The notes under the pieces are model-generated. The model was not told the origin of the DNA. It ran no database searches and was given only the letters and a program-made list of their open reading frames with translations. Below, piece after piece: positions 2,455-21,466 of a stretch of DNA of 23,246 nt. The translations under genes and the position numbers were made by a program. The stretch comes from a virus: the IMG/VR virus record IMGVR_UViG_3300048121_000421, positions 1 through 23,246 of that record; one strand, 5' to 3'. Position 1 is the first letter of the stretch; each line of letters starts with the position of its first letter.

Positions 2455-2819
2455 AAAACGCATTAGGTGGTGCTTCATACGAACAGATAACAGGAATGTT
2501 TGAAGGCTTTGATTGGTATCAAAGTAAGTGTTCAGAGACTGTAGTCTTTGATGAAGATGTAGCAGTAGAATATTTAACACTTGGATTAGCTTCCGAGGCT
2601 GGCGAAGTAGCTGGTAAACTAAAAAAGAAAATGAGAGATGGCGAACCTTATGATTTCAAAGATCAGATGGCTTCTGAGTTGGGTGATGTATTCTGGTATC
2701 TTGCCGTACTCACTGATCGCATGGGGCTTAATCTCAGCGATATTGCCTTTGACAATTTAAACAAACTATACAAGCGTAAGATTAACGATACGCTGCAAGG
2801 CTCAGGAGATGACCGATAA
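2451..2819 (+). CDS. MazG-like nucleotide pyrophosphohydrolase
   Basis: A 122-residue all-alpha NTP pyrophosphohydrolase of the MazG / dUTPase-like superfamily. The metal-binding signature is intact: Glu49-Ala-Gly-Glu52 in GLASEAGEVAGKL and Glu76-Leu-Gly-Asp79 in ELGDVFWYLAVL, 24 residues apart. Phage MazG proteins have been proposed to clear non-canonical dNTPs or to lower (p)ppGpp in the host; tests on cyanophage MazG pointed to dGTP/dCTP hydrolysis rather than ppGpp. Here the gene begins in the stop codon of the DUF3310 gene (ATGA, 2451-2454), and its own stop TAA overlaps by one base the ATG of the ribonucleotide reductase, so three nucleotide-metabolism genes are coupled. The size matches single-domain phage MazG, half the length of cellular two-domain MazG. 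Confidence 0.9.
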   Translation: MKNALGGASYEQITGMFEGFDWYQSKCSETVVFDEDVAVEYLTLGLASEAGEVAGKLKKKMRDGEPYDFKDQMASELGDVFWYLAVLTDRMGLNLSDIAFDNLNKLYKRKINDTLQGSGDDR

Positions 2820-4699
2820 TGGATTCATATCAACAGTACATACACAAATCCCGTTACGCTAGGTGGCGGGAAGAAGATAACAGAAGAGAGACATGGAAGG
2901 AAACTGTACAGCGGTACATTAACTTCTGGGTAGATAGAGGACAGTTAGATACTACACTAGCGTATGAACTCTTTGATGCTATCTACAAGCAAGAAATTAT
3001 GCCATCAATGCGTTGTCTAATGACAGCGGGTGAGGCACTAAAGCGTGATAACATGGCAGGGTTTAACTGCTCCTATGTTGCCGTAGATAACCAGCGAGTA
3101 TTCGATGAGATACTTTACGTATTAATGTGTGGCACAGGTGTAGGCTTCTCCGTGGAGCGGCAGTCTGTAGTCAAACTACCAACAATTAGTGAGGAGTTCC
3201 ATGAAACAGAAACTACAATCCATGTCCAAGATAGCAAAATTGGTTGGGCTAAAGCTTTCCGTGAGTTGGTTAGTCTTTTGTATTCGGGTCAAGTGCCTAC
3301 TTGGGATGTCTCTAAGTTACGGGCTAAAGGTGAAAGGCTTAAAACATTTGGTGGTAGATCGAGCGGGGCTGATCCTTTGGTTAGGCTTTTCGAGTTTACT
3401 GTTTCTACTTTCAAGAACGCTGCTGGACGTAAGCTAACGAGTATTGAATGCCATGACATTGTTTGTAAAATTGCTGAGATCGTTGTTGTTGGTGGTGTGC
3501 GTAGGTCTGCTCTCATCTCTCTATCTAACTTGTCTGATGACCGTATGCGTCATGCGAAGTCTGGGAATTGGTGGGAGACACAAACGCAAAGAGCCTTGGC
3601 AAACAACAGTGCCGTCTACAATGAGAAGCCAGAGTATGAAACCTTTTTGGAAGAATGGGTAGCACTCTATAAATCTAAAGCAGGGGAGCGAGGTATCTTC
3701 TCCCGTACTGCTGCAAAGAAACAAGCAGAGAGAAATGGACGTAGAGATGTAGGTCACGACTTTGGGACTAACCCTTGTAGTGAGATTATCCTACGCTCTG
3801 CACAGGTATGTAACTTGTCTGAGATTGTAGTACGGGCTGATGACACACAAGAATCTTTAGAACGTAAGACACGACTAGCAACAATACTGGGAACACTACA
3901 GTCAACCCTAACTGACTTTAGGTATGTACGCTCTGTGTGGAAGAACAACACACAAGAAGAATGTTTACTTGGTGTAAGTATGACAGGCATCATGGATCAC
4001 AAGTTGTTATCAGGTAAGGGTAGCCTTGTAGTCCTGAAAGAGACACTAGAGAAACTGAAGAAGATTGCTGTACAAACCAACAAGCACTTTGCGGCTGAGT
4101 TAGGTGTAAACCAATCGACAGCTATTACGTGTGTGAAGCCGTCAGGTACAGTGTCCCAACTGGTAGACAGTGCTAGTGGTATTCATGCTAGGTTCTCTCC
4201 TTATTATATAAGACGAGTACGAAGCGATGGGAAAGACCCTATCTCTGCATTCCTGAAAGACTCAGGTGTGAAGTGGGAGAAGGATGTAATGAACACAGAG
4301 AACTATGTGTTTGACTTCCCTGTGAAAGCCCCCAAGGGTGCAACTTGTGTTAACGAGCTTAATGTGCAACAGCAGTTAGATTTGTGGGAGATATATCAGG
4401 AACACTGGTGTGAACATAAGCCTAGTGTAACCATCTACTACTCTGATGACGAGTTCTTGGCAGCAGGGCAATGGCTATGGGAACGACTAGATAGCTGCTC
4501 AGGTATTAGCTTCCTGCCTCGAACTGACCACGTGTATGCCCAAGCTCCTTATGAAGCAATTGATAAGGACAGGTATATGGAACTTAAACGAGAGACCCCT
4601 TCAGAAATTGAATGGGACAGGCTAGGTGAATATGAAAAAGAGGACACCACTACTGGAACTCAGGAGTTGGCTTGCTCGTCAGGTTCATGCGAAATATAG
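2819..4699 (+). CDS. nrdJ: Class II (adenosylcobalamin-dependent) ribonucleotide reductase, monomeric type
   Basis: Reduces ribonucleotides to deoxyribonucleotides for phage DNA synthesis, using B12 rather than a di-iron subunit, so no second subunit is needed and oxygen is irrelevant. The 626 residues show the class II monomeric (RTPR-like) pattern: FNCSYV with Cys84, CGTGVGFSVER, NPCSEIILRSAQVCN with Cys320, Glu322 and Cys331, the KPSGTVSQL phosphate-binding loop, and the C-terminal redox pair Cys619/Cys624 in ACSSGSCEI. The 11-residue spacing between Cys320 and Cys331 and the five-residue spacing at the C-terminus equal those of Lactobacillus leichmannii RTPR (C408/C419, C731/C736). It is shorter than that enzyme (739 residues), as are other phage versions. 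This class is common in marine podoviruses and cyanophages. Last gene of the replication block; a hairpin and promoter-like site follow. The subtype is by motif recognition. Confidence 0.93.
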   Translation: MDSYQQYIHKSRYARWREEDNRRETWKETVQRYINFWVDRGQLDTTLAYELFDAIYKQEIMPSMRCLMTAGEALKRDNMAGFNCSYVAVDNQRVFDEILYVLMCGTGVGFSVERQSVVKLPTISEEFHETETTIHVQDSKIGWAKAFRELVSLLYSGQVPTWDVSKLRAKGERLKTFGGRSSGADPLVRLFEFTVSTFKNAAGRKLTSIECHDIVCKIAEIVVVGGVRRSALISLSNLSDDRMRHAKSGNWWETQTQRALANNSAVYNEKPEYETFLEEWVALYKSKAGERGIFSRTAAKKQAERNGRRDVGHDFGTNPCSEIILRSAQVCNLSEIVVRADDTQESLERKTRLATILGTLQSTLTDFRYVRSVWKNNTQEECLLGVSMTGIMDHKLLSGKGSLVVLKETLEKLKKIAVQTNKHFAAELGVNQSTAITCVKPSGTVSQLVDSASGIHARFSPYYIRRVRSDGKDPISAFLKDSGVKWEKDVMNTENYVFDFPVKAPKGATCVNELNVQQQLDLWEIYQEHWCEHKPSVTIYYSDDEFLAAGQWLWERLDSCSGISFLPRTDHVYAQAPYEAIDKDRYMELKRETPSEIEWDRLGEYEKEDTTTGTQELACSSGSCEI

Positions 4700-12848: not shown

Positions 12849-14438
12849 ATGGCAACCTCAATAGATAAATCAGTGAATTGGCGTAATGCTGCGGCTACGC
12901 CTGATTATCAGGTTACTGCTCAACGAGTGGATACATTCGTTCAAGGTGAAAGAAATACTAGAGGGGAACAAGTAGCTGCGGCTCTTGACTCTGCTGCTGG
13001 TACTTTAAGTAACGTGGCTAAAACACAGGCTGTAAAACAACAGCGAGAACAAACTAAGGCAGAGAAACAAGCAGAAGCCTTGGATAAACTACAAGCTAAC
13101 AATGAATCTGCTTCACAAAGAGAACTGGCAACACAGTGGCTGGCTGATACGGATATATCGTCCTTTGCCACCCCAGACCAAGCTTTAGAGCAGTATGCTC
13201 AGGATAACCCATCATACGGTGAAGCTATAACAAGTCTTACTACTGATGTCGGTAGAATAACCTTTGGAACAGAGTTCGGTGATGTTTTTAACCAAGGCTT
13301 CTATGAAAAGCATAAAGAACTAAAAGATTTTAAAACAGCTTCGACCCTTAACGTCTTCGCTATGAACGAACTAAACAAAGACGGACAAACGGATCAGGCT
13401 ATGTCTGTTGATGACCCACGCTTTACGCTGTTGGTTCAGTCGCTAGAAGGTCAAGCCTCTACATTGGGATATGAAACACCACAGTCTCAATATGAATTGC
13501 TGGCTGCTGTAGCAGAGCAACAGTACAGAGAAACGCAGGATGTACGACTTTTTGATTACCTACAGGGAAATGTAAAAGGGCGTAATGCAATAGGTGGCAC
13601 AGACTTCCAAAACTCCTTAGCAACTAAAAGAGAGTCTATTAGAAAGCTACACTTGTCACAAGATAATGAGGCACGTTTGACCAAGGAAAGAGACCTTAAA
13701 CAAAATAAGGTTCTCCTAGGTCAAGAAGTAGCTGCTATATTAATGAGTGGTGAAGGTGATCTACTTGAGCTTGCTAATAAGTACACAAGCATGGGCGTAG
13801 CTAGTGCTATGCAAACTGTTAAGTCAATGAAAGATGCTCACGAAGATTTAGACGATGTCAACCTAGACTCTTCTCAGTATTCATCAATCTGGCAAGGTTT
13901 CCTACAACAGTCTACTCCTATGGATCAGATGGCGTATTTAAACACCCACGTAGCTAATGACACGATTAGTAAACCGCTGCTTGCACAACTGTATTCACGT
14001 ATTGGCAACGACCAAGACAAGGCTATGTTTAATAACATGGCTTGGAAAAGTGTTGAGGCTGGTATTAATACTTTGTCTAGAGACAGAGATAGCGGGATGG
14101 CTTTAGCTGAGTTCACCTACTTAGATGGTGTAGGTAAACAGCTTTGGATTGATCTTTACACATCTCCTGAATTTAAGGACATGGGGCTACAGCAGCAGAT
14201 AGCTTCAGCAAACAACATTGTTAAAACTTTAATGACTCTTAAAGAAACCGATAACTCCACTAACGCTATTGTGGACGGCAGGGAAGAGTTCGGAAAACAG
14301 CAAGATATACAACAAACTGATTTACAAGTTAGAACACTAAGTGAGCCAGTTAAGGGCGAAACCCCCGCTGAGGCGTTGGTTAGAGACACAAAACTTTTAG
14401 AGGCGCAAGAGCGGCTCAGAAAATTAAGAGAAGATTAA
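12849..14438 (+). CDS. Internal core / ejection protein, T7 gp15-like
   Basis: A 529-residue protein between the gp14- and gp16-like genes. It is predominantly helical, with a hydrophilic Gln/Ala/Glu-rich coiled-coil start (QAVKQQREQTKAEKQAEALDKLQANNES, about residues 60-87 read in two halves) and recognisable segments such as ITFGTEFGDVFNQGFYEKHKE near 136-156. T7 gp15 (747 residues) forms part of the internal core, is ejected into the periplasm, builds the channel hub and binds gp16. This version is about 220 residues shorter. No peptidoglycan-cleaving motif or signal peptide is visible. The call is based on order, size and composition; I recognise no domain beyond that. Confidence 0.75.
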   Translation: MATSIDKSVNWRNAAATPDYQVTAQRVDTFVQGERNTRGEQVAAALDSAAGTLSNVAKTQAVKQQREQTKAEKQAEALDKLQANNESASQRELATQWLADTDISSFATPDQALEQYAQDNPSYGEAITSLTTDVGRITFGTEFGDVFNQGFYEKHKELKDFKTASTLNVFAMNELNKDGQTDQAMSVDDPRFTLLVQSLEGQASTLGYETPQSQYELLAAVAEQQYRETQDVRLFDYLQGNVKGRNAIGGTDFQNSLATKRESIRKLHLSQDNEARLTKERDLKQNKVLLGQEVAAILMSGEGDLLELANKYTSMGVASAMQTVKSMKDAHEDLDDVNLDSSQYSSIWQGFLQQSTPMDQMAYLNTHVANDTISKPLLAQLYSRIGNDQDKAMFNNMAWKSVEAGINTLSRDRDSGMALAEFTYLDGVGKQLWIDLYTSPEFKDMGLQQQIASANNIVKTLMTLKETDNSTNAIVDGREEFGKQQDIQQTDLQVRTLSEPVKGETPAEALVRDTKLLEAQERLRKLRED

Positions 14439-14450
14439 CTGAGGTTAAAC

Positions 14451-17400
14451 ATGAGTGATTACACTTATTATCTAGATTTAGCAGAACAAGCTAAACAAGA
14501 AGGCGATTTAGAAACAGCAAAAGGTTTGGCAGATGTTGCTGAGAGATTAATGCCTAAACAGGAAGAAGAAACACAGCCAGAACCACAAGAACAGGGTTCA
14601 CAGTTTGGGCTACCTATGCAGACCTCTTTGAGCGTTGCTGGAGGTGTTGGCAGTGCTTTTACAGAGTCTGCTGGGTTCTTAGATTTAATCCTAGACCCTA
14701 TAGCTGATGACATAAGCAAAGTTACGGGTGATGTAGCTACCTTTAAAACAAAAGGCGCAAGTGAAGAAGAATTAACCCTATGGGAGAACCTAAACGGGGC
14801 TGTTGTCTTTGACGCTTTCGGTAGAGAAGTTAAACACTTTAACTACGACCAACTACAACAACTTAAGCAAAGTAAACTTATTGACAACGCTAGACTTGGC
14901 TACTTTGGTGAAGGTTCGTTAGAGAACGTCACAGAGTCAGCTTTACTAACTAACAAAGACTTAAAAGAGTCTGGTGTAGTCGATAGCGGCTTTGCTCAGT
15001 TCACTGGCGGTGTAACACAATTCCTAGCTGGGTGGGTTACTTTAGGTAAGTTTAAGAAAGGTGCTGAGGCTACACAAACAGTTACACAAAGAGTTACTGA
15101 AGCTACTGCAAAAGGTTTTGTCGTAGATACGGTAGCCTTTGATGGTCACGATGCTAACGCTGCTGATCTTGTTAAGGTGATGGGTCTTGAGGCTGAATAC
15201 CTAGACTGGCTTACTGATAAAGAAACAGATGAAGAGTTTTTCAATAGACTTAAGAACGGTATAGCTGGTGGTGCAACAGGCATAGCTTTAGACTATACAA
15301 TAGAGGGTTTAATTAAAGGGTTTAGGCTTGTAAAATCAGGTAAGAAGTCAAAAGACGAAACCCTAGCACCAGAGGAACAAGCGGCTGCTAAAGAAGAAGC
15401 TGAAGTTTTAGATAAGGAGCTAAAAGATGATCTTAACCCAGAAGAGGGTAACACTAAAGTTCTTGATGAAGATGGTAACACACTTAACGTAGAGACCCCT
15501 GAGACTACATCTAAGAAGTTTGAGGATGAAACACCAGAGCCTAAAGCAGAAGAACCAGAAGTACCTTTAGGTAAGCCTGAGAAATGGGGCGAGAACGAAG
15601 CTGGTGATATGGTTCATCAAGTTGATTACGAAGGCACAACCATCAACATCATTAAGCGCAAAGACTCCAAGAGATATGGCATTGAGGATTTAGAGGGTTT
15701 TGGTACATTCGGTTCAGTTAAAGAAGCTAATGAGTTTATCCATAATACACTGTATCGTTCAAACGATGTAGCTGATATGAACAAGTGGCAGAAAGCTGCT
15801 AAGTCAAAAAGAGATGCAGAAGAGTTACCCGAAGCTCCGTTAAGTATTAACACTAAACCTGTTAAGGTGGGTAAGGGTGAGTACACAGTAGAGCGAAACG
15901 GTACTACTTATAATGTCAAGAAAGTTAGCAGCAACAAGTGGGAGATAGAAGGACAGGAAGGAACTGTTAAAAGTCTTAAGGAAGCCACAGAGAAGCTAAA
16001 CAAACTAGCTGAGGATGCTGCGAGAGAAAGTAAGAAACCAACCTACGCTAACCAAGAATTTTCCATTAATAAGGTAGACGAAGATACATACACATTTACC
16101 AGAACAAACTTTGGTAACGAATACGATTATGTAGTTACAAAACAAAAAGATGGTAAATGGAAAAGAACAGAGAACGGTAGAGAAGATGACAGGCGTTACA
16201 ATACTGTTGAAGAAGCCGTAGATGAGATTGATGAAACAATTAACTATAACGACCCTGCGAGAAAGGAAAGGTTTGGTGAACACGTTAGAGAACGTGACCA
16301 AGTAGCCTCCCTTGGAAAAGTAGAAGATTCAGATGTGCCTAACATCCCTGACTACACTAGAATGTCTAAGGATGAGCTAGACATCATCACTAAGGAAGCT
16401 AGAGCGAAGTTCAAAAGCTTACGGTCTCCTGATGATACAGGTACTAAAACAATTCCTGTTAAGAAGTCTATTGCTCAAGGTAGAGCTTATATTACCAAAC
16501 TCTTAAAGGAGCAGGAAGTAACAGCCGACATCTTAGACTTTGTTAAACAACTAACAAAAGAAAAACCACACCCTTCAATGGCAGCAGCCTTTACTAAAGG
16601 TGTACAAGACTTACAAAAAGATATTGTACTGTCTATAAGGTTGATTGAGGAAAGCACAGCTTACAAAAAAGGCGATCCTAATGCCATAGCTAAGAAGAAA
16701 ATGCTTACACAGGCTTACTTAGAACTTCATACCATAATAGAAGGTCTAGGTAGTTCTTGGGGTAGGGCGTTACAAGCTTTACGAGTAGCAGTTACAGGTA
16801 GCAAGCCAAGAGACTTATCGTCTTACTTTGGTGAAGATTTAGCCAGAGCGCAGGACAAGATGGTTGATAAAGCGGCTAAGGCTGCTCAGAAAGAGATTGA
16901 TCGTCTTAAGAAAGGTAAGAACCTCTCAGAAGATGACCTTCTTAGAAAAGATATGCTAGAGGAATCAGGCATCGAAGTGTCGCCAGAAGATATGACCTTC
17001 ATCAACCGTATCAAAGAGAAAGCTGGTAGTTACTACTCAACTACTAAAAAAGGCTTGGACATGACTGTAGAGTTTGCAACAGCTAACCTACTGACCAGTA
17101 TAGACACACAATTAATTAACATCATAGCTAACTCAGTGATGACCCTAGTTAATAATATCGAAACCATGTCTGGTGCGCCTATTGCTCTTTTACGTGGTGA
17201 TGTTAAGGCTGCTAAGAGACAATGGCGTAGAGGTTATGTGCAAATGTTTGGTATTGCCCTACACTCTAGAAGAGCTTTGGCTGCTTCGGCTGAAGTTATC
17301 GCCTCTGGTAAAAACATCCTCGACCCAGACTTTAAAGTAAAGGAAGAAGTACGTGGAGCAAAGGACAGTGTTTCTATCGGTAAAGGTGATCTAGACTTAC

Positions 17401-19070
17401 GTGATATTAGAGAAAAGATCAGGAACGCAGATTGGGATGAGTTGAAAGATATTCCTATTGGGGATTGGGTTGGTAATACTGTACGTATCCCATTTAGAGG
17501 TCTAGCCGCTGGTGATGAATTTTTTAAGCAAGTCAACTACCGCTCTGTGTACATGGGCTTGGTAGATGCTAGATGGCAACAGGCTGGCAAGCATCAAGAC
17601 GAAGGTATGAAAGAATACTGGGGATTGGTGAAAGCTGAGGTTGATAAAAGCTTAGACCTTGTTAAAAAATGGAGAGACGGTGAGGAAGTATTAACCGAAC
17701 AAGATTTAACTGATTTAGGGGAGGTTATTTACGCTCTCCAACAATCTCGCCAAGTTACGTTTACAGATAAATTAGGTGGCTTTGGTCAGTGGATACAAAA
17801 AGGTGTAAACCAGTTCCCACTTGCTAGGCTTATCATGGATGCTTGGTTTATTCGTACTCCTACAAACGTGTTTAAGTTTGGTCTAAGACGCTTTCCAGTA
17901 ACAGCTGTATTCTCCAGAAGATTCCACGAAATGATGAGAAGAGGTGGGGACGATAGAGATAGGGCTATAGGCGAAATGGTTATGATGACTACGGCTGTCT
18001 ACACTGCATGGAACTTTATCAACGAAAAAGAAAAAGTACCTGACGGTAAAGGCGGTGAAGTAGAAATATACAAGTGGACAAGCACCATGGATCATACGTC
18101 CTACAACCACCAAAAGAATCTTAAATTGGCTGGTGTAGCCCCTCACTCGTACTACCACGAGGGTAAGTTCTATACTACTTCTCGTTTTGACCCTGCTGAT
18201 GTAATCTTAATGACACTCGCAAACACTAGAGATTTAGTAGAGTTAGGCAAGTACGAAGAAGCTAACGAAATACTAGGTGCTACGGTTGTCTCCTTTATGA
18301 ACCTTGCTAAAGATAAAACCTTTACACAAGGTATAGCAAACTTTGTAGAGATGACAGCTGATCCCATCAACAAGGGTGGTAAATACTTAGAAGCAAAAGG
18401 TAGAGTGTTTACTCCATCAGTCTTGAAGATGATTGGTGAGGATGAAGTATACAGAGAAGTGAACGGTGTTATCGAGGCTATGCAAAGCCAGATACCCACA
18501 CTGTCTCCTAACCTTCAACCTAAGTTCGATAGGCTTGGTCAGGTTATGAACAAACCCGATAAAGGTTTGTCTAACGTAACCCTCTTATCAGATAACCCAG
18601 TTCGTTTAGAGTTCTTAAAGATGAACTCAAACATCTCTGACATTCCTAAACAACGAGGAATACTTGATCTGGAAGCTGCCTACTTTTACAAAGACGGTAA
18701 GTCTGCTTGGACTAGGTTCAATGAGATTTACTCAAGTATTGAAAAGAACGGTTTAACTCTAGAAGAGCGTATAGCTAAATACTTCAAATCTTCAAAATAC
18801 CAAAAGGTAACTAAGAGAAGCTTATCTACTCCTGAGAGAGATTTAAAGAGTGGAGCAGAGATAGATGTTATGACTATTCTTAGCGCTTACGAAAGGTACG
18901 CTATGAAGAAGCTTCTTAAGGAATACGAAGATACAGGTCTTGCAGAAGTATATGAAGTTAATCGTAAACTTGAACGTAACGCCCAACGAGAGAAAACTGT
19001 AGAAGGTATCATAACTGATCCTGAAGAAATTATAGCCAACTGGCGCAGAAAAAATAGGAAAATCAAATGA
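14451..19070 (+). CDS. Large internal core / ejection protein, T7 gp16-like
   Basis: The largest gene: 1539 residues (T7 gp16: 1318). T7 gp16 is ejected with gp15 to make the channel that pulls DNA into the cell, and carries a lytic transglycosylase domain at its start. Here no transglycosylase signature (catalytic Glu-Ser followed by a Gly-Leu-Met-Gln motif) is seen. Instead residues 1-45 form a short helical hairpin, 300-380 are a highly acidic linker, and about 385-434, 473-522 and 536-599 are three related small modules (see findings). The C-terminal half is conserved-looking: SIDTQLINIIANSVMTLVNN near 880, then VRIPFRGLAAGDEFFKQVNYRS near 1012-1033 as in other podovirus gp16-type proteins. 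GAGGTT precedes the ATG. The last four bases overlap the tail fibre start (ATGA). Confidence 0.85.
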   Translation: MSDYTYYLDLAEQAKQEGDLETAKGLADVAERLMPKQEEETQPEPQEQGSQFGLPMQTSLSVAGGVGSAFTESAGFLDLILDPIADDISKVTGDVATFKTKGASEEELTLWENLNGAVVFDAFGREVKHFNYDQLQQLKQSKLIDNARLGYFGEGSLENVTESALLTNKDLKESGVVDSGFAQFTGGVTQFLAGWVTLGKFKKGAEATQTVTQRVTEATAKGFVVDTVAFDGHDANAADLVKVMGLEAEYLDWLTDKETDEEFFNRLKNGIAGGATGIALDYTIEGLIKGFRLVKSGKKSKDETLAPEEQAAAKEEAEVLDKELKDDLNPEEGNTKVLDEDGNTLNVETPETTSKKFEDETPEPKAEEPEVPLGKPEKWGENEAGDMVHQVDYEGTTINIIKRKDSKRYGIEDLEGFGTFGSVKEANEFIHNTLYRSNDVADMNKWQKAAKSKRDAEELPEAPLSINTKPVKVGKGEYTVERNGTTYNVKKVSSNKWEIEGQEGTVKSLKEATEKLNKLAEDAARESKKPTYANQEFSINKVDEDTYTFTRTNFGNEYDYVVTKQKDGKWKRTENGREDDRRYNTVEEAVDEIDETINYNDPARKERFGEHVRERDQVASLGKVEDSDVPNIPDYTRMSKDELDIITKEARAKFKSLRSPDDTGTKTIPVKKSIAQGRAYITKLLKEQEVTADILDFVKQLTKEKPHPSMAAAFTKGVQDLQKDIVLSIRLIEESTAYKKGDPNAIAKKKMLTQAYLELHTIIEGLGSSWGRALQALRVAVTGSKPRDLSSYFGEDLARAQDKMVDKAAKAAQKEIDRLKKGKNLSEDDLLRKDMLEESGIEVSPEDMTFINRIKEKAGSYYSTTKKGLDMTVEFATANLLTSIDTQLINIIANSVMTLVNNIETMSGAPIALLRGDVKAAKRQWRRGYVQMFGIALHSRRALAASAEVIASGKNILDPDFKVKEEVRGAKDSVSIGKGDLDLRDIREKIRNADWDELKDIPIGDWVGNTVRIPFRGLAAGDEFFKQVNYRSVYMGLVDARWQQAGKHQDEGMKEYWGLVKAEVDKSLDLVKKWRDGEEVLTEQDLTDLGEVIYALQQSRQVTFTDKLGGFGQWIQKGVNQFPLARLIMDAWFIRTPTNVFKFGLRRFPVTAVFSRRFHEMMRRGGDDRDRAIGEMVMMTTAVYTAWNFINEKEKVPDGKGGEVEIYKWTSTMDHTSYNHQKNLKLAGVAPHSYYHEGKFYTTSRFDPADVILMTLANTRDLVELGKYEEANEILGATVVSFMNLAKDKTFTQGIANFVEMTADPINKGGKYLEAKGRVFTPSVLKMIGEDEVYREVNGVIEAMQSQIPTLSPNLQPKFDRLGQVMNKPDKGLSNVTLLSDNPVRLEFLKMNSNISDIPKQRGILDLEAAYFYKDGKSAWTRFNEIYSSIEKNGLTLEERIAKYFKSSKYQKVTKRSLSTPERDLKSGAEIDVMTILSAYERYAMKKLLKEYEDTGLAEVYEVNRKLERNAQREKTVEGIITDPEEIIANWRRKNRKIK

Positions 19071-21466
19071 CAAACACTTTACACTCTATAAATGAGTACG
19101 ACTACACGGGGCAAAGCGACTTTGTTGCCCCCAGTCACCAACAAGCCAGTGACATTGTTGTTCTGGTAAACGATGTTGTCAAAACACAAGATACTGATTA
19201 CACGCTAACGGGTAATCTTGTAGCTTTCACAGGCTTCACCCCTTCAAACGGAGATAAGATAAGTATAAGGCGTGAGACAGCATCCGCAGCTAGAGCAGTA
19301 GACTTTACTGCTGGTTCAATGCTTAAAGCAGAGACGTTAGACCAAGACTCTAATCAAATCTTCAACATAGCTCAAGAAGCCCTTGATAAAGCTGAAATGA
19401 TTGGTGGAGACTACAACGCTAGGTACTATGGTGCTTCTACTGCTGCACCTACATCCCCTGCACCCGAAGAGGGTGACTTATGGTTTGATGCTGCTAATGA
19501 TATAATGAAGGTTTATAGAGAAGCTACAACAGACTGGGCTTCGTTAAAACTAACTGATGCAGAACTAGCTAAGGTAAGCACGGTTGAAGGTATTGCAACT
19601 GCGGTAGAGACTGCGGCAGCAAACGCTACAGGGATAAACCATTACGGTAGAACCTTTTTAGGGTCAGGGACTGTACCACCTTCAACATACTCTGACGGTA
19701 CTGCAATACAGGTCGGAGCTTTGTGGTTTGACTCTAGCGTTAACACCATGAAAGCGTATCGAACAGACGGTAGTTGGCAACCAATGACTTCTAGCGTCTC
19801 CAACACTATTAGAAGGGAATCGACAACACTTACTTCATCACAGTCCACCTTTAGTGGGAGTGGTTATGAGATTGGCAACCTAGATATATATCTTAATGGT
19901 GTTAGATTAGTTGGTAAGGTGGGTAATGTTGCTAACGACTATACGGCTGACGATGGTATTTCATTTACTTTAACAACCCCAGCCGTTGCTGGAGATGTTA
20001 TAGAGGCAATAACTTACGGAACGTCTCCTTTGATAGGCGCACAGTCAGGGGCAGCGGGGACAGACGCTTCTTGGGACTCACTTACAGGCATCATAACAGT
20101 ACCTCGTGGTGATACTGGTGCTACTGGTGCTGCTGGTGCTGACGGAGCAGATGGGGCAGATGGAGCAGATGGGGCAGATGGGGCAGATGGAGCAGATGGA
20201 GTAGACGGCACAAACGGTACAAATGGCACAAATGGTACAAATGGTACAAACGGCACAGATGGTACAGACGGTACAGATGGTAATGGTTTCACAGGCGGGT
20301 CTTATGACTCATCAACAGGAATTGTGACATTTACCTCAGATGATGGGTTAGGATTTAGCACATCTGATTTACGAGGCGAGGACGGTGCTTTGCTTTCAGG
20401 GGCTAACTTCACTGGCGATGTTAGCGCACCTAATATAGGTATAGGCACATCAACACCTATTGCACCTTTGACTATTCATAAGGATAACTCAGAGTATAGA
20501 GTTACTCAAGATACTTTTATTTCAGACGGTACTCTTGTATCTTCTTATAATACCGATACTTTAACATATGGGAGTATTTTAACTAGAGCTTCTGACCATA
20601 GGTGGGGTATTGGTTCAGATGAGAAAATGCGTATTGATGATACAGGTTATGTCGGAATAAATAATAATAACCCTAGTGAAGCCTTAGACGTTACTGGAAA
20701 CATCGCAGTAAGCGGCACAGTGGATGGTAGAGACGTAGCCGCAGACGGTACTAAGTTAGATGGTTTAGAGCGAACAGTGCGACAGCGTTTTCAAAGACGA
20801 GGTTATAACAACACACTTTCGTTTAGTTCTTTAACCACCTCCTATGCACAAGTGGGTTCTACATTACGTATAAACTCAGGAGCAACTACAGCTGTTGAAA
20901 ATGTTTTAGACTTAAACTTAAACGTACATTTTGGTGACATTAACTCTACAAACGATGGCTTGTTTGTAGTAACTGTTGATGCTCCTAATCCATCAAACGA
21001 GACAACTGTAAATTTAGGAACTGTGACTGGATCGACTCAGGGTACATTCTCGGTTAGCGGTGATTTCACTAAACATTTCTCACCGTATTGTGGGTTGTCA
21101 ACAAACTCAGATGGTTCAAATGCTTTTAACTTTTCAAATCAACAAGGTTGGGATTATAACCCTGTAACCGATAAAACAACTGTATACTTCTACCCTTACC
21201 AAGCGAACACCCCCTCAACAGGTGATACAGTTTACTTGCACCCTTTTGATTGGGAAACTACAGGCACTGAAATCAACGGGGATGAGTATCCTATAGATGC
21301 ATACAACGCTCATGGAACTGTCAATGTTAATCAATTTCAGCAAATATACCTTGGATACTATAAACCAGAAAGAACCTTTAAGATTAAAGCTAAAGAAACA
21401 AGCACGAGCGAGAGCATCAGTTTAGCAAGGGTGTCGGGTACTTATTCACAGATTATAGGAGGTTAA
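19067..21466 (+). CDS. Tail fibre with T7 gp17-like base and collagen-like stalk
   Basis: A 799-residue fibre. Residues about 8-115 match the T7 tail fibre N-terminal domain (DYTGQSDFVAP..., VLVNDVVKTQDTDYTL, FTAGSMLKAETLDQDSNQIF) that anchors the fibre to the tail. Two copies of a GDLWFD/GALWFD module lie at about 135-160 and 217-242, and a second 'LNGVRL...DYT...GDVIEAITYG' module at about 272-316. Residues 348-404 are 19 Gly-X-Y triplets. They are flanked by two 'SxTGIxT' strands (ASWDSLTGIITV before, SYDSSTGIVTFT after). Then comes a beta-rich part with VGINNNNPSEALDVTGN and GTVDGRDVAADGTKLDGLE, familiar from many marine phage fibres. The last ~230 residues are an unrecognised, probably receptor-binding, domain. 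The protein probably trimerises through the collagen-like stretch. Confidence 0.92.
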   Translation: MTNTLHSINEYDYTGQSDFVAPSHQQASDIVVLVNDVVKTQDTDYTLTGNLVAFTGFTPSNGDKISIRRETASAARAVDFTAGSMLKAETLDQDSNQIFNIAQEALDKAEMIGGDYNARYYGASTAAPTSPAPEEGDLWFDAANDIMKVYREATTDWASLKLTDAELAKVSTVEGIATAVETAAANATGINHYGRTFLGSGTVPPSTYSDGTAIQVGALWFDSSVNTMKAYRTDGSWQPMTSSVSNTIRRESTTLTSSQSTFSGSGYEIGNLDIYLNGVRLVGKVGNVANDYTADDGISFTLTTPAVAGDVIEAITYGTSPLIGAQSGAAGTDASWDSLTGIITVPRGDTGATGAAGADGADGADGADGADGADGADGVDGTNGTNGTNGTNGTNGTDGTDGTDGNGFTGGSYDSSTGIVTFTSDDGLGFSTSDLRGEDGALLSGANFTGDVSAPNIGIGTSTPIAPLTIHKDNSEYRVTQDTFISDGTLVSSYNTDTLTYGSILTRASDHRWGIGSDEKMRIDDTGYVGINNNNPSEALDVTGNIAVSGTVDGRDVAADGTKLDGLERTVRQRFQRRGYNNTLSFSSLTTSYAQVGSTLRINSGATTAVENVLDLNLNVHFGDINSTNDGLFVVTVDAPNPSNETTVNLGTVTGSTQGTFSVSGDFTKHFSPYCGLSTNSDGSNAFNFSNQQGWDYNPVTDKTTVYFYPYQANTPSTGDTVYLHPFDWETTGTEINGDEYPIDAYNAHGTVNVNQFQQIYLGYYKPERTFKIKAKETSTSESISLARVSGTYSQIIGG
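20108..20278 (+). repeat. Nine-base repeats coding for 19 collagen-like Gly-X-Y triplets
   Basis: In-frame 9-base units inside the tail fibre gene: GDT, GAT, GAA, seven GAD, GVD, five GTN and three GTD triplets, then GNG. There is no proline; Asp, Ala, Thr and Asn fill the X and Y positions. Units differ only at wobble bases (for example GCAGATGGG and GCAGATGGA), so they are recent duplications. Change in copy number would keep the frame and alter the stalk length. Confidence 0.95.

Follow-up and report, generated by a model that had tools for sequence, protein, structure and literature searches.

In the portions available of the papers cited here, T7 gp16 is modelled after ejection as lying across the periplasm, inner membrane and cytoplasm (PMC8954989; PMC11784390), and its C-terminal part is described as binding DNA (PMC8954989). 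Homologues of gp16 vary in size and domain composition, ejection proteins swap domains (PMC8954989), and internal virion protein genes are reported to be more divergent and/or mosaic (PMC10386132). Phages and conjugative elements also encode polyvalent proteins, chains of several domains that are presumed to enter the cell along with the injected DNA and in which ADP-ribosyltransferase (ART) domains are common (PMC5512222, PMC9503650). The available part of PMC5512222 contains no mention of gp16, T7-like phages or internal virion proteins, and no effector slot in T7-like gp16 is named in the literature titles and abstract openings that we surveyed. A third described system is N4 gp8, which is listed as targeting HolA in the accessible part of PMC6466130. 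Here we analyze a marine T7-like phage contig of 23246 bases from a virus record (the whole stretch is called the window below), in which a gp16-like protein carries three small modules at a length-variable site.

The gp16-like gene and its genome context

ORFs in the window match DNA polymerase A, a 5'-3' exonuclease, ribonucleotide reductase, the T7 capsid assembly protein and a holin family, as well as the Pfam families for the head-tail connector, Phage_nozzle, T7_gp14 (9e-20) and Phage_T7_tail; the ORF at the gp13 position matches Phage_T7_Gp13 below cut-off. The gp16-like gene follows gp14 and gp15 and precedes the tail fibre, an order shared with four related loci (L024, L025, L026 and L028).

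12849-14438: gp15-like ORF, adjoining the gp16-like gene upstream
14451..19070, + strand: gp16-like internal virion (ejection) protein, an ORF of 1539 aa between the gp15-like ORF and the tail fibre
19067-21466: tail fibre ORF, adjoining the gp16-like gene downstream

This ORF, its coordinates and three sequence strings had been given in an earlier note on the same DNA, and all proved correct. With the gp16-like protein as query, tblastn matched 22 phage records, including Pelagibacter, Roseobacter and Desulfovibrio phages, with a best E of 1e-20 and identities all below 60%; these are annotated as internal virion protein D (11), internal virion protein (2), hypothetical (8) or otherwise (1). 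A relative at 44% identity, L025, matches phrog_6651 (internal virion protein) at 2.1e-12, and each of the five relatives submitted to this comparison (L025, L033, L050, L056 and L086) matches the same family. The window's own protein has no match in PHROGs at 0.1 and, in Pfam, neither a domain above cut-off nor a transglycosylase family; LPD25 reached only 0.21 and was rejected. Since the gp16 profile fails to pick up T7 gp16 itself, transfer of the T7 topology to this protein relies on gene order and family annotation. The protein ends in WRRKNRKIK, and a basic C-terminus is described for gp16 of T7's close relatives in the available text of PMC8954989; at least three K/R among the last 12 residues occur in only 16 of 67 proteins.

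Several other features of the window are recorded here. The tail fibre has a T7-type N-terminus and a collagen-like stretch at residues 348-405, and its first 160 aa are just 38-41% identical to those of three close relatives. The DNA of the ribonucleotide reductase ORF (2819-4699) gives the window's only near match in phage records, to Puniceispirillum phage HMO-2011 (80.6% over 98 bases). A small ORF at 917-1300, which overlaps the end of the DNA polymerase ORF, matches the Holliday junction resolvase family Hjc (1.2e-6).

A recurrent insertion site of variable length in gp16-like proteins

An alignment of 68 gp16-like proteins places the modules within a site of highly variable length.

15342..16397, + strand: length-variable insertion site, residues 298-649

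The set comprised the window, its three close relatives in IMG/VR (L005, L006 and L007), 10 of the 22 tblastn records and 54 of the other 78 loci, the loci being drawn from the best 80 of 484; on visual inspection we excluded 24 loci that seemed to be duplicates, fragments or near copies, and some duplication persists in the 68 (L025 is identical to L026, and lengths are equal in L033/L037 and L063/L072). Between conserved anchors the site spans 60-1433 aa and measures at least 200 aa in 20 of the 68 proteins; because the alignment of such divergent proteins is rough inside the site, its borders are approximate. The block of 92 core columns that overlaps the site has a length SD of 209, versus 5.6-32 in the ten other blocks.

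The content of the site differs sharply among relatives. An HMM of the modules matches 4 of the 68 proteins, namely the window and its three near relatives, and the next best row has an E of 0.27. Those three gp16 proteins are 77-93% identical to the window (best segment) and keep the modules; the L007 ORF stops at 1252 aa after an ambiguous residue, and tblastn follows it to 1536. The nearest outgroups, all at 44% identity, carry a short linker (L024) or a different segment (L025 and L026, whose proteins are identical); the site measures 99 aa in L024, 204 aa in L025 (about 105 aa more) and 352 aa in the window.

Named domains were sought by a Pfam scan of 11 of the 54 whole proteins from the loci, mostly those with long sites; in L005-L007, Pfam coverage was confined to the modules. 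Enzyme matches above cut-off occurred in only two of the 11: ART-PolyVal, an ADP-ribosyltransferase, in the L050 site (3e-19) and Methyltransf_23 in the L056 site (9.4e-7, 29.1 bits vs a cut-off of 27). Below cut-off were ART-PolyVal (7.6e-6) and SAP (3.6e-4) in the L086 site and an ART-like match in L033 (0.005-0.007), and seven proteins (L025, L088, L051, L054, L083, L042 and L024) had no Pfam family above cut-off. All the named Pfam domains of the relatives fall within the site. These results show a recurrent insertion site of variable length and content in gp16-like proteins, which we read as permissive and fast-changing.

Two relatives are described further. In L050 (1678-2184), ART-PolyVal occupies residues 491-659 of a 2603-aa gp16-like protein, and most of the large phage proteins matched by the neighbouring stretches have no known function. 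In L025 (5992-10212), site residues 317-520 include an unnamed segment of ~80 aa with the pattern Y.Y...K...F.N...KA.YIV.GKGKS, for which no Pfam family was found. This segment recurs at 35-37% identity in an unannotated stretch of Macromonas phage BK-30P and in residues 310-385 of the Sphaerotilus phage R1 internal virion protein, which is otherwise unmatched by the gp16 profile (-1.6 bits).

Three tandem modules and their alleles in four phages

Within the site, an acidic linker is followed by three modules.

15381..15602, + strand: acidic linker, residues 311-384, net charge -15
15594..15770, + strand: module m1, residues 382-440, related to m2, predicted beta-beta-beta-beta-alpha
15840..16025, + strand: module m2, residues 464-525, 91-97% identity among four close relatives
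16044..16259, + strand: module m3, residues 532-603

The earlier note had described an acidic linker, which is real, and three related modules, a claim that holds for m1 and m2 and is borderline by sequence for m3. Local alignment of m1 with m2 scored 69 or 80 depending on gap cost (z 9.7-9.8), and none of 2000 shuffles scored as high. An HMM built from m2 alone found the window's m1 at 11.2 bits, versus a best of 3.8 in 300 shuffled gp16 sequences, and found the L005/L006 allele of m1 at just 0.9-1.3 bits; conversely, an m1-only HMM gave m2 1.9-5.2 bits, not above shuffles (5.5). Sequence comparison thus supports kinship of m1 and m2. For m3, z ranged by gap cost from 1.0 to 2.0 against m1 and from 1.9 to 3.5 against m2, the L007 allele of m3 reached z 6.2 against m2 (0 of 3000 shuffles), and hhalign P values were 1e-4 (m1-m3), 0.005 (m2-m3) and 1.7e-4 (m1-m2). 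In leave-one-out HMMs omitting one module, m3 was not separated from shuffles and the omitted module was not found above them. Given these borderline scores, m3 is likely related to m1 and m2 on the basis of its predicted plan together with borderline sequence similarity. As for the shared motifs that had been noted, the 'S/T-x-x-EA' helix start is present in all three modules and 'GTTxNx' in m1 and m2 only. Net charge is acidic in m1 and m3 (-2 to -8) and mildly basic in m2 (+3 to +5).

AlphaFold2, run with four sequences on residues 351-638, predicts at a mean pLDDT of 66, in model numbering, strands 27-31, 37-43, 46-52 and 59-61 with helix 73-85 for m1; strands 121-124, 127-132, 135-143 and 146-149 with helix 159-178 for m2; and strands 190-193, 196-203, 206-214, 220-224 and 227-233 with helix 236-250 for m3. 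The pLDDT is below 50 for most of the segment that joins m1 to m2 (model residues 86-94 and 96-117). A single-module run, on m2 with rows of all three modules, returned the same plan at pLDDT 79. With moderate confidence, the models therefore assign one common plan to the three modules, of four strands (five in m3) and then a helix. This replaces the 'beta-beta-helix' plan proposed earlier, and the models contain neither three unrelated folds nor disorder of the modules, the outcomes named beforehand as refuting a common fold.

Among solved structures, the top row of one of two fold searches is 1ylx, a protein of unknown function (Z 5.0), and the other folds listed are mostly protein-binding at low Z, such as SH2 domains (best row 3gxw_D, Z 5.2, rmsd 2.3 over 63 residues, a Z in the tool's common-arrangement range) and the tyrosinase caddie protein. 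The SH2 and caddie folds share the sheet-plus-helix arrangement (Z 4.3-5.4) but are only about 3-18% identical to the modules, with Z within that same common range, and the resemblance is likely analogy only.

The modules were sought widely, as the earlier note had suggested for phage and bacterial proteins, and DNA and protein searches detected them in no contig beyond four phage contigs: the window and three from IMG/VR (L005, L006 and L007). In 50,697 phage records, tblastn did not find them, giving 3-5 weak rows per query (E 2 to 10), with four such rows for the module region alone (E 2 to 10); two of these, from Brevundimonas phage Domovoi and Mycobacterium phage CRB2, matched only PHROGs of unknown function when scanned. 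Genome contigs yielded 17 pattern matches and no relatives, and six-frame searches of the window and the relatives' loci showed no module elsewhere. Against Pfam, PHROGs and NCBIfam, the modules matched neither a DNA-binding nor a peptidoglycan-binding family; the matches seen included phrog_6396 (unknown function) to m2 (0.0018 over 24 residues) and DUF2188 to the L006 m3 (0.1 only). A PDB profile search returned nothing below 0.076, and Photosystem I rows in a PDB sequence search (best 0.03) were taken as chance.

Comparison of the four phages shows that parts of the module region exist as discrete alleles.

15600..15660, + strand: two-allele part of m1, with the window and L007 of one type and L005 and L006 of the other
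16020..16320, + strand: exchanged cassette carrying m3, two alleles with sharp edges (window vs L007, 20-base blocks)

In 150-base blocks, window and L007 DNA are 88-100% identical over 13701-18950 (80% in the last block, from 18951), except for three blocks at 15951-16400 with 55-76%. In 20-base blocks, identity is 35-75% across 16020-16320 and 90-100% just outside, and L006 has the same cassette edges. Between L005 and the window, identity is 94-99% over 15951-16850 and 68-92% in the rest of gp16. At the protein level, residues 524-622 are 98% identical between the window and L005, 74% between L006 and L007 and 38-41% in the other pairs, whereas residues 382-412 are 100% identical between the window and L007, 90% between L005 and L006 and 48% in the others. 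Since the pairings differ between m1 and m3, the module alleles reassort, and all four m1 x m3 combinations are present in the four phages. Module m2 is 91-97% identical across all six pairs, versus 77-99% for flanking gp16 segments. The m3 pattern (window with L005, L006 with L007) is absent from six segments taken from gp13, gp14, gp15 (two halves), the nozzle (C-terminal part, partial in L007) and the fibre (first 160 aa). The m3 alleles have thus been swapped by recombination, and the four genomes show that recombination, not its cause.

Leaving aside the m3 cassette, the window and L007 share roughly 5 kb (13701-18950) at 88-100% DNA identity. L007 diverges more in its nozzle, its gp14, its fibre and the first half of its gp15, placing a mosaic boundary inside gp15.

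Candidate roles of the modules

The computations show the m1/m2 relation, a common predicted plan, a variable site bearing other domains in relatives and allele exchange, and it is from these that we infer what the modules might do. Because gp16 is ejected and, in T7, crosses the inner membrane, any insertion compatible with assembly would travel along, presumably entering the cell envelope or cytoplasm as infection begins. The exchanged modules, together with the other domains that distant relatives carry at this place, suggest, short of proof, a slot for proteins delivered to the host cell. We tentatively favor the idea, nearly as easy to believe as to doubt, that m1-m3 are protein-binding cargo domains of an ejection protein, working like polyvalent proteins. 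Small beta-beta-beta-beta-alpha protein-binding domains inserted in tandem at a permissive gp16 site could form a binder or inhibitor with several heads, aimed at a host protein of replication, defence or another early target, with m1 and m3 as variable heads and m2 as a constant head, in the manner of polyvalent-protein domains.

Alternatively, the modules may be structural, packing the gp16 part of the internal core or stiffening the trans-envelope channel through contacts with gp15, gp14 or gp16 and varying with those partners; we consider this rather unlikely. The available text of PMC11784390 has T7 gp16 forming a core with gp15, and the constancy of m2, whose lowest-pair identity of 91% is the highest among 13 segments compared in four genomes, is as expected for a fixed contact. 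However, L024 has just a short linker yet keeps gp14 and gp15, and its lineage therefore does not need the modules; moreover, of the segments compared from gp13, gp14, gp15, nozzle and fibre, not one shows the m3 allele pattern. Binding to another core protein, one of three functions put forward in the earlier note, may apply, but in the four genomes the m3 alleles diverge in a different way from the gp14, gp15, nozzle and fibre segments compared.

A neutral role strikes us as improbable. Under it, gp16 would tolerate insertions that recombination shuffles and the modules would have no selected role, consistent with a site that accommodates 60 to 1433 residues and holds no named domain in most of the relatives scanned. 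A mere spacer would not readily account for m2 at 91-97% identity against 77-99% for flanking gp16, for a reading frame open in all four phages, or for the ART and methyltransferase domains of two relatives, which are unlikely as filler. Still harder to sustain is DNA binding, whereby the modules would resemble the C-terminal part of T7 gp16, which binds DNA according to the accessible text of PMC8954989, and would assist in holding the genome as it enters. The mildly basic m2 and a weak SAP match in the L086 site would agree with it, but m1 and m3 are acidic and the modules match no DNA-binding family in Pfam, PHROGs or NCBIfam, which disfavors this suggestion of the earlier note; its other suggestion, peptidoglycan binding, likewise finds no such family among the module matches. 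Ig-like or adhesin-type binding repeats can be set aside as scarcely credible: Big_13 to m3 (0.001, 19.9 bits vs 27) and Ca_tandemer to m2 (0.0083, 16.5 vs 50) are below cut-off, and the closing helix predicted in every module misfits an all-beta Ig fold, which we rejected.

For the cargo reading, a lead to a concrete action comes from the N4_GP8 family. A viral fold search with one module placed the phage protein JenP1 second (probability 0.99, E 0.15, 27% identity, TM 0.54-0.56), behind A0A8S5TML4; with the whole module region JenP1 ranked 33rd and A0A248SJX6 12th, and all Foldseek E-values exceeded 0.001. JenP1 belongs to N4_GP8 (PF25713, E 1.5e-18). Module m2 resembles it in sequence (z 5.2, 0 of 5000 shuffles), and m1 and m3 show no similarity to it. 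Profile alignment with the N4_GP8 family scored 23.5, whereas 100 column shuffles averaged 7.9 and never exceeded 13.5, and the reversed family reached 11.7; because JenP1 was picked after the fold search, this match is not independent evidence. Across 180 small ORFs, the module HMM ranked JenP1 first (E 0.022) with two relatives in the top 12 (E 0.38 and 1.6), a top 12 that does not include N4 gp8 itself, and six module sequences against Pfam, at a maximum E of 5, gave no N4_GP8 row. JenP1's N4-gp8-type protein is tentatively the closest identified stand-alone match to the modules, offering as a candidate action that of a small inhibitor of a host protein.

Taken furthest, the gp16 site could be a general effector slot of T7-like phages, into which each lineage puts its own injected weapon, be it an ART, a methyltransferase or, here, a three-headed inhibitor. 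The modules would then be an ejected, tandem version of an N4-gp8-like inhibitor fold, with outer heads exchanged between phages to keep up with shifting host targets; we put this forward as a long shot. If true, a core part of the marine podophage DNA-injection machine would double as a delivery vehicle with exchangeable payload, searching the gp16 gap would be an easy way to discover new phage effectors and counter-defence proteins, and the modules would offer a testable case of single-domain alleles reassorting within an injected protein.

Compared with known systems, the window's protein resembles T7 gp16/internal virion protein D in gene order, size class, T7-type neighbours and the annotation of its relatives, but differs from T7 gp16 in having no detectable sequence match to it, no Pfam transglycosylase family and an extra three-module site. 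The N4 gp8 family may have a similar small plan, as the JenP1 row of the fold search suggests, and its profile match to the modules is weak but co-linear, whereas its members are stand-alone proteins of 65-71 aa and the modules have no Pfam match to the family. In a polyvalent protein, one chain holds several domains whose known activities are unlike one another; the window's protein has no such combination and no enzyme or polyvalent domain above cut-off, but it shares with them a virion-protein context, a large multidomain chain and, in the same site of a relative (L050), an ART-PolyVal domain.
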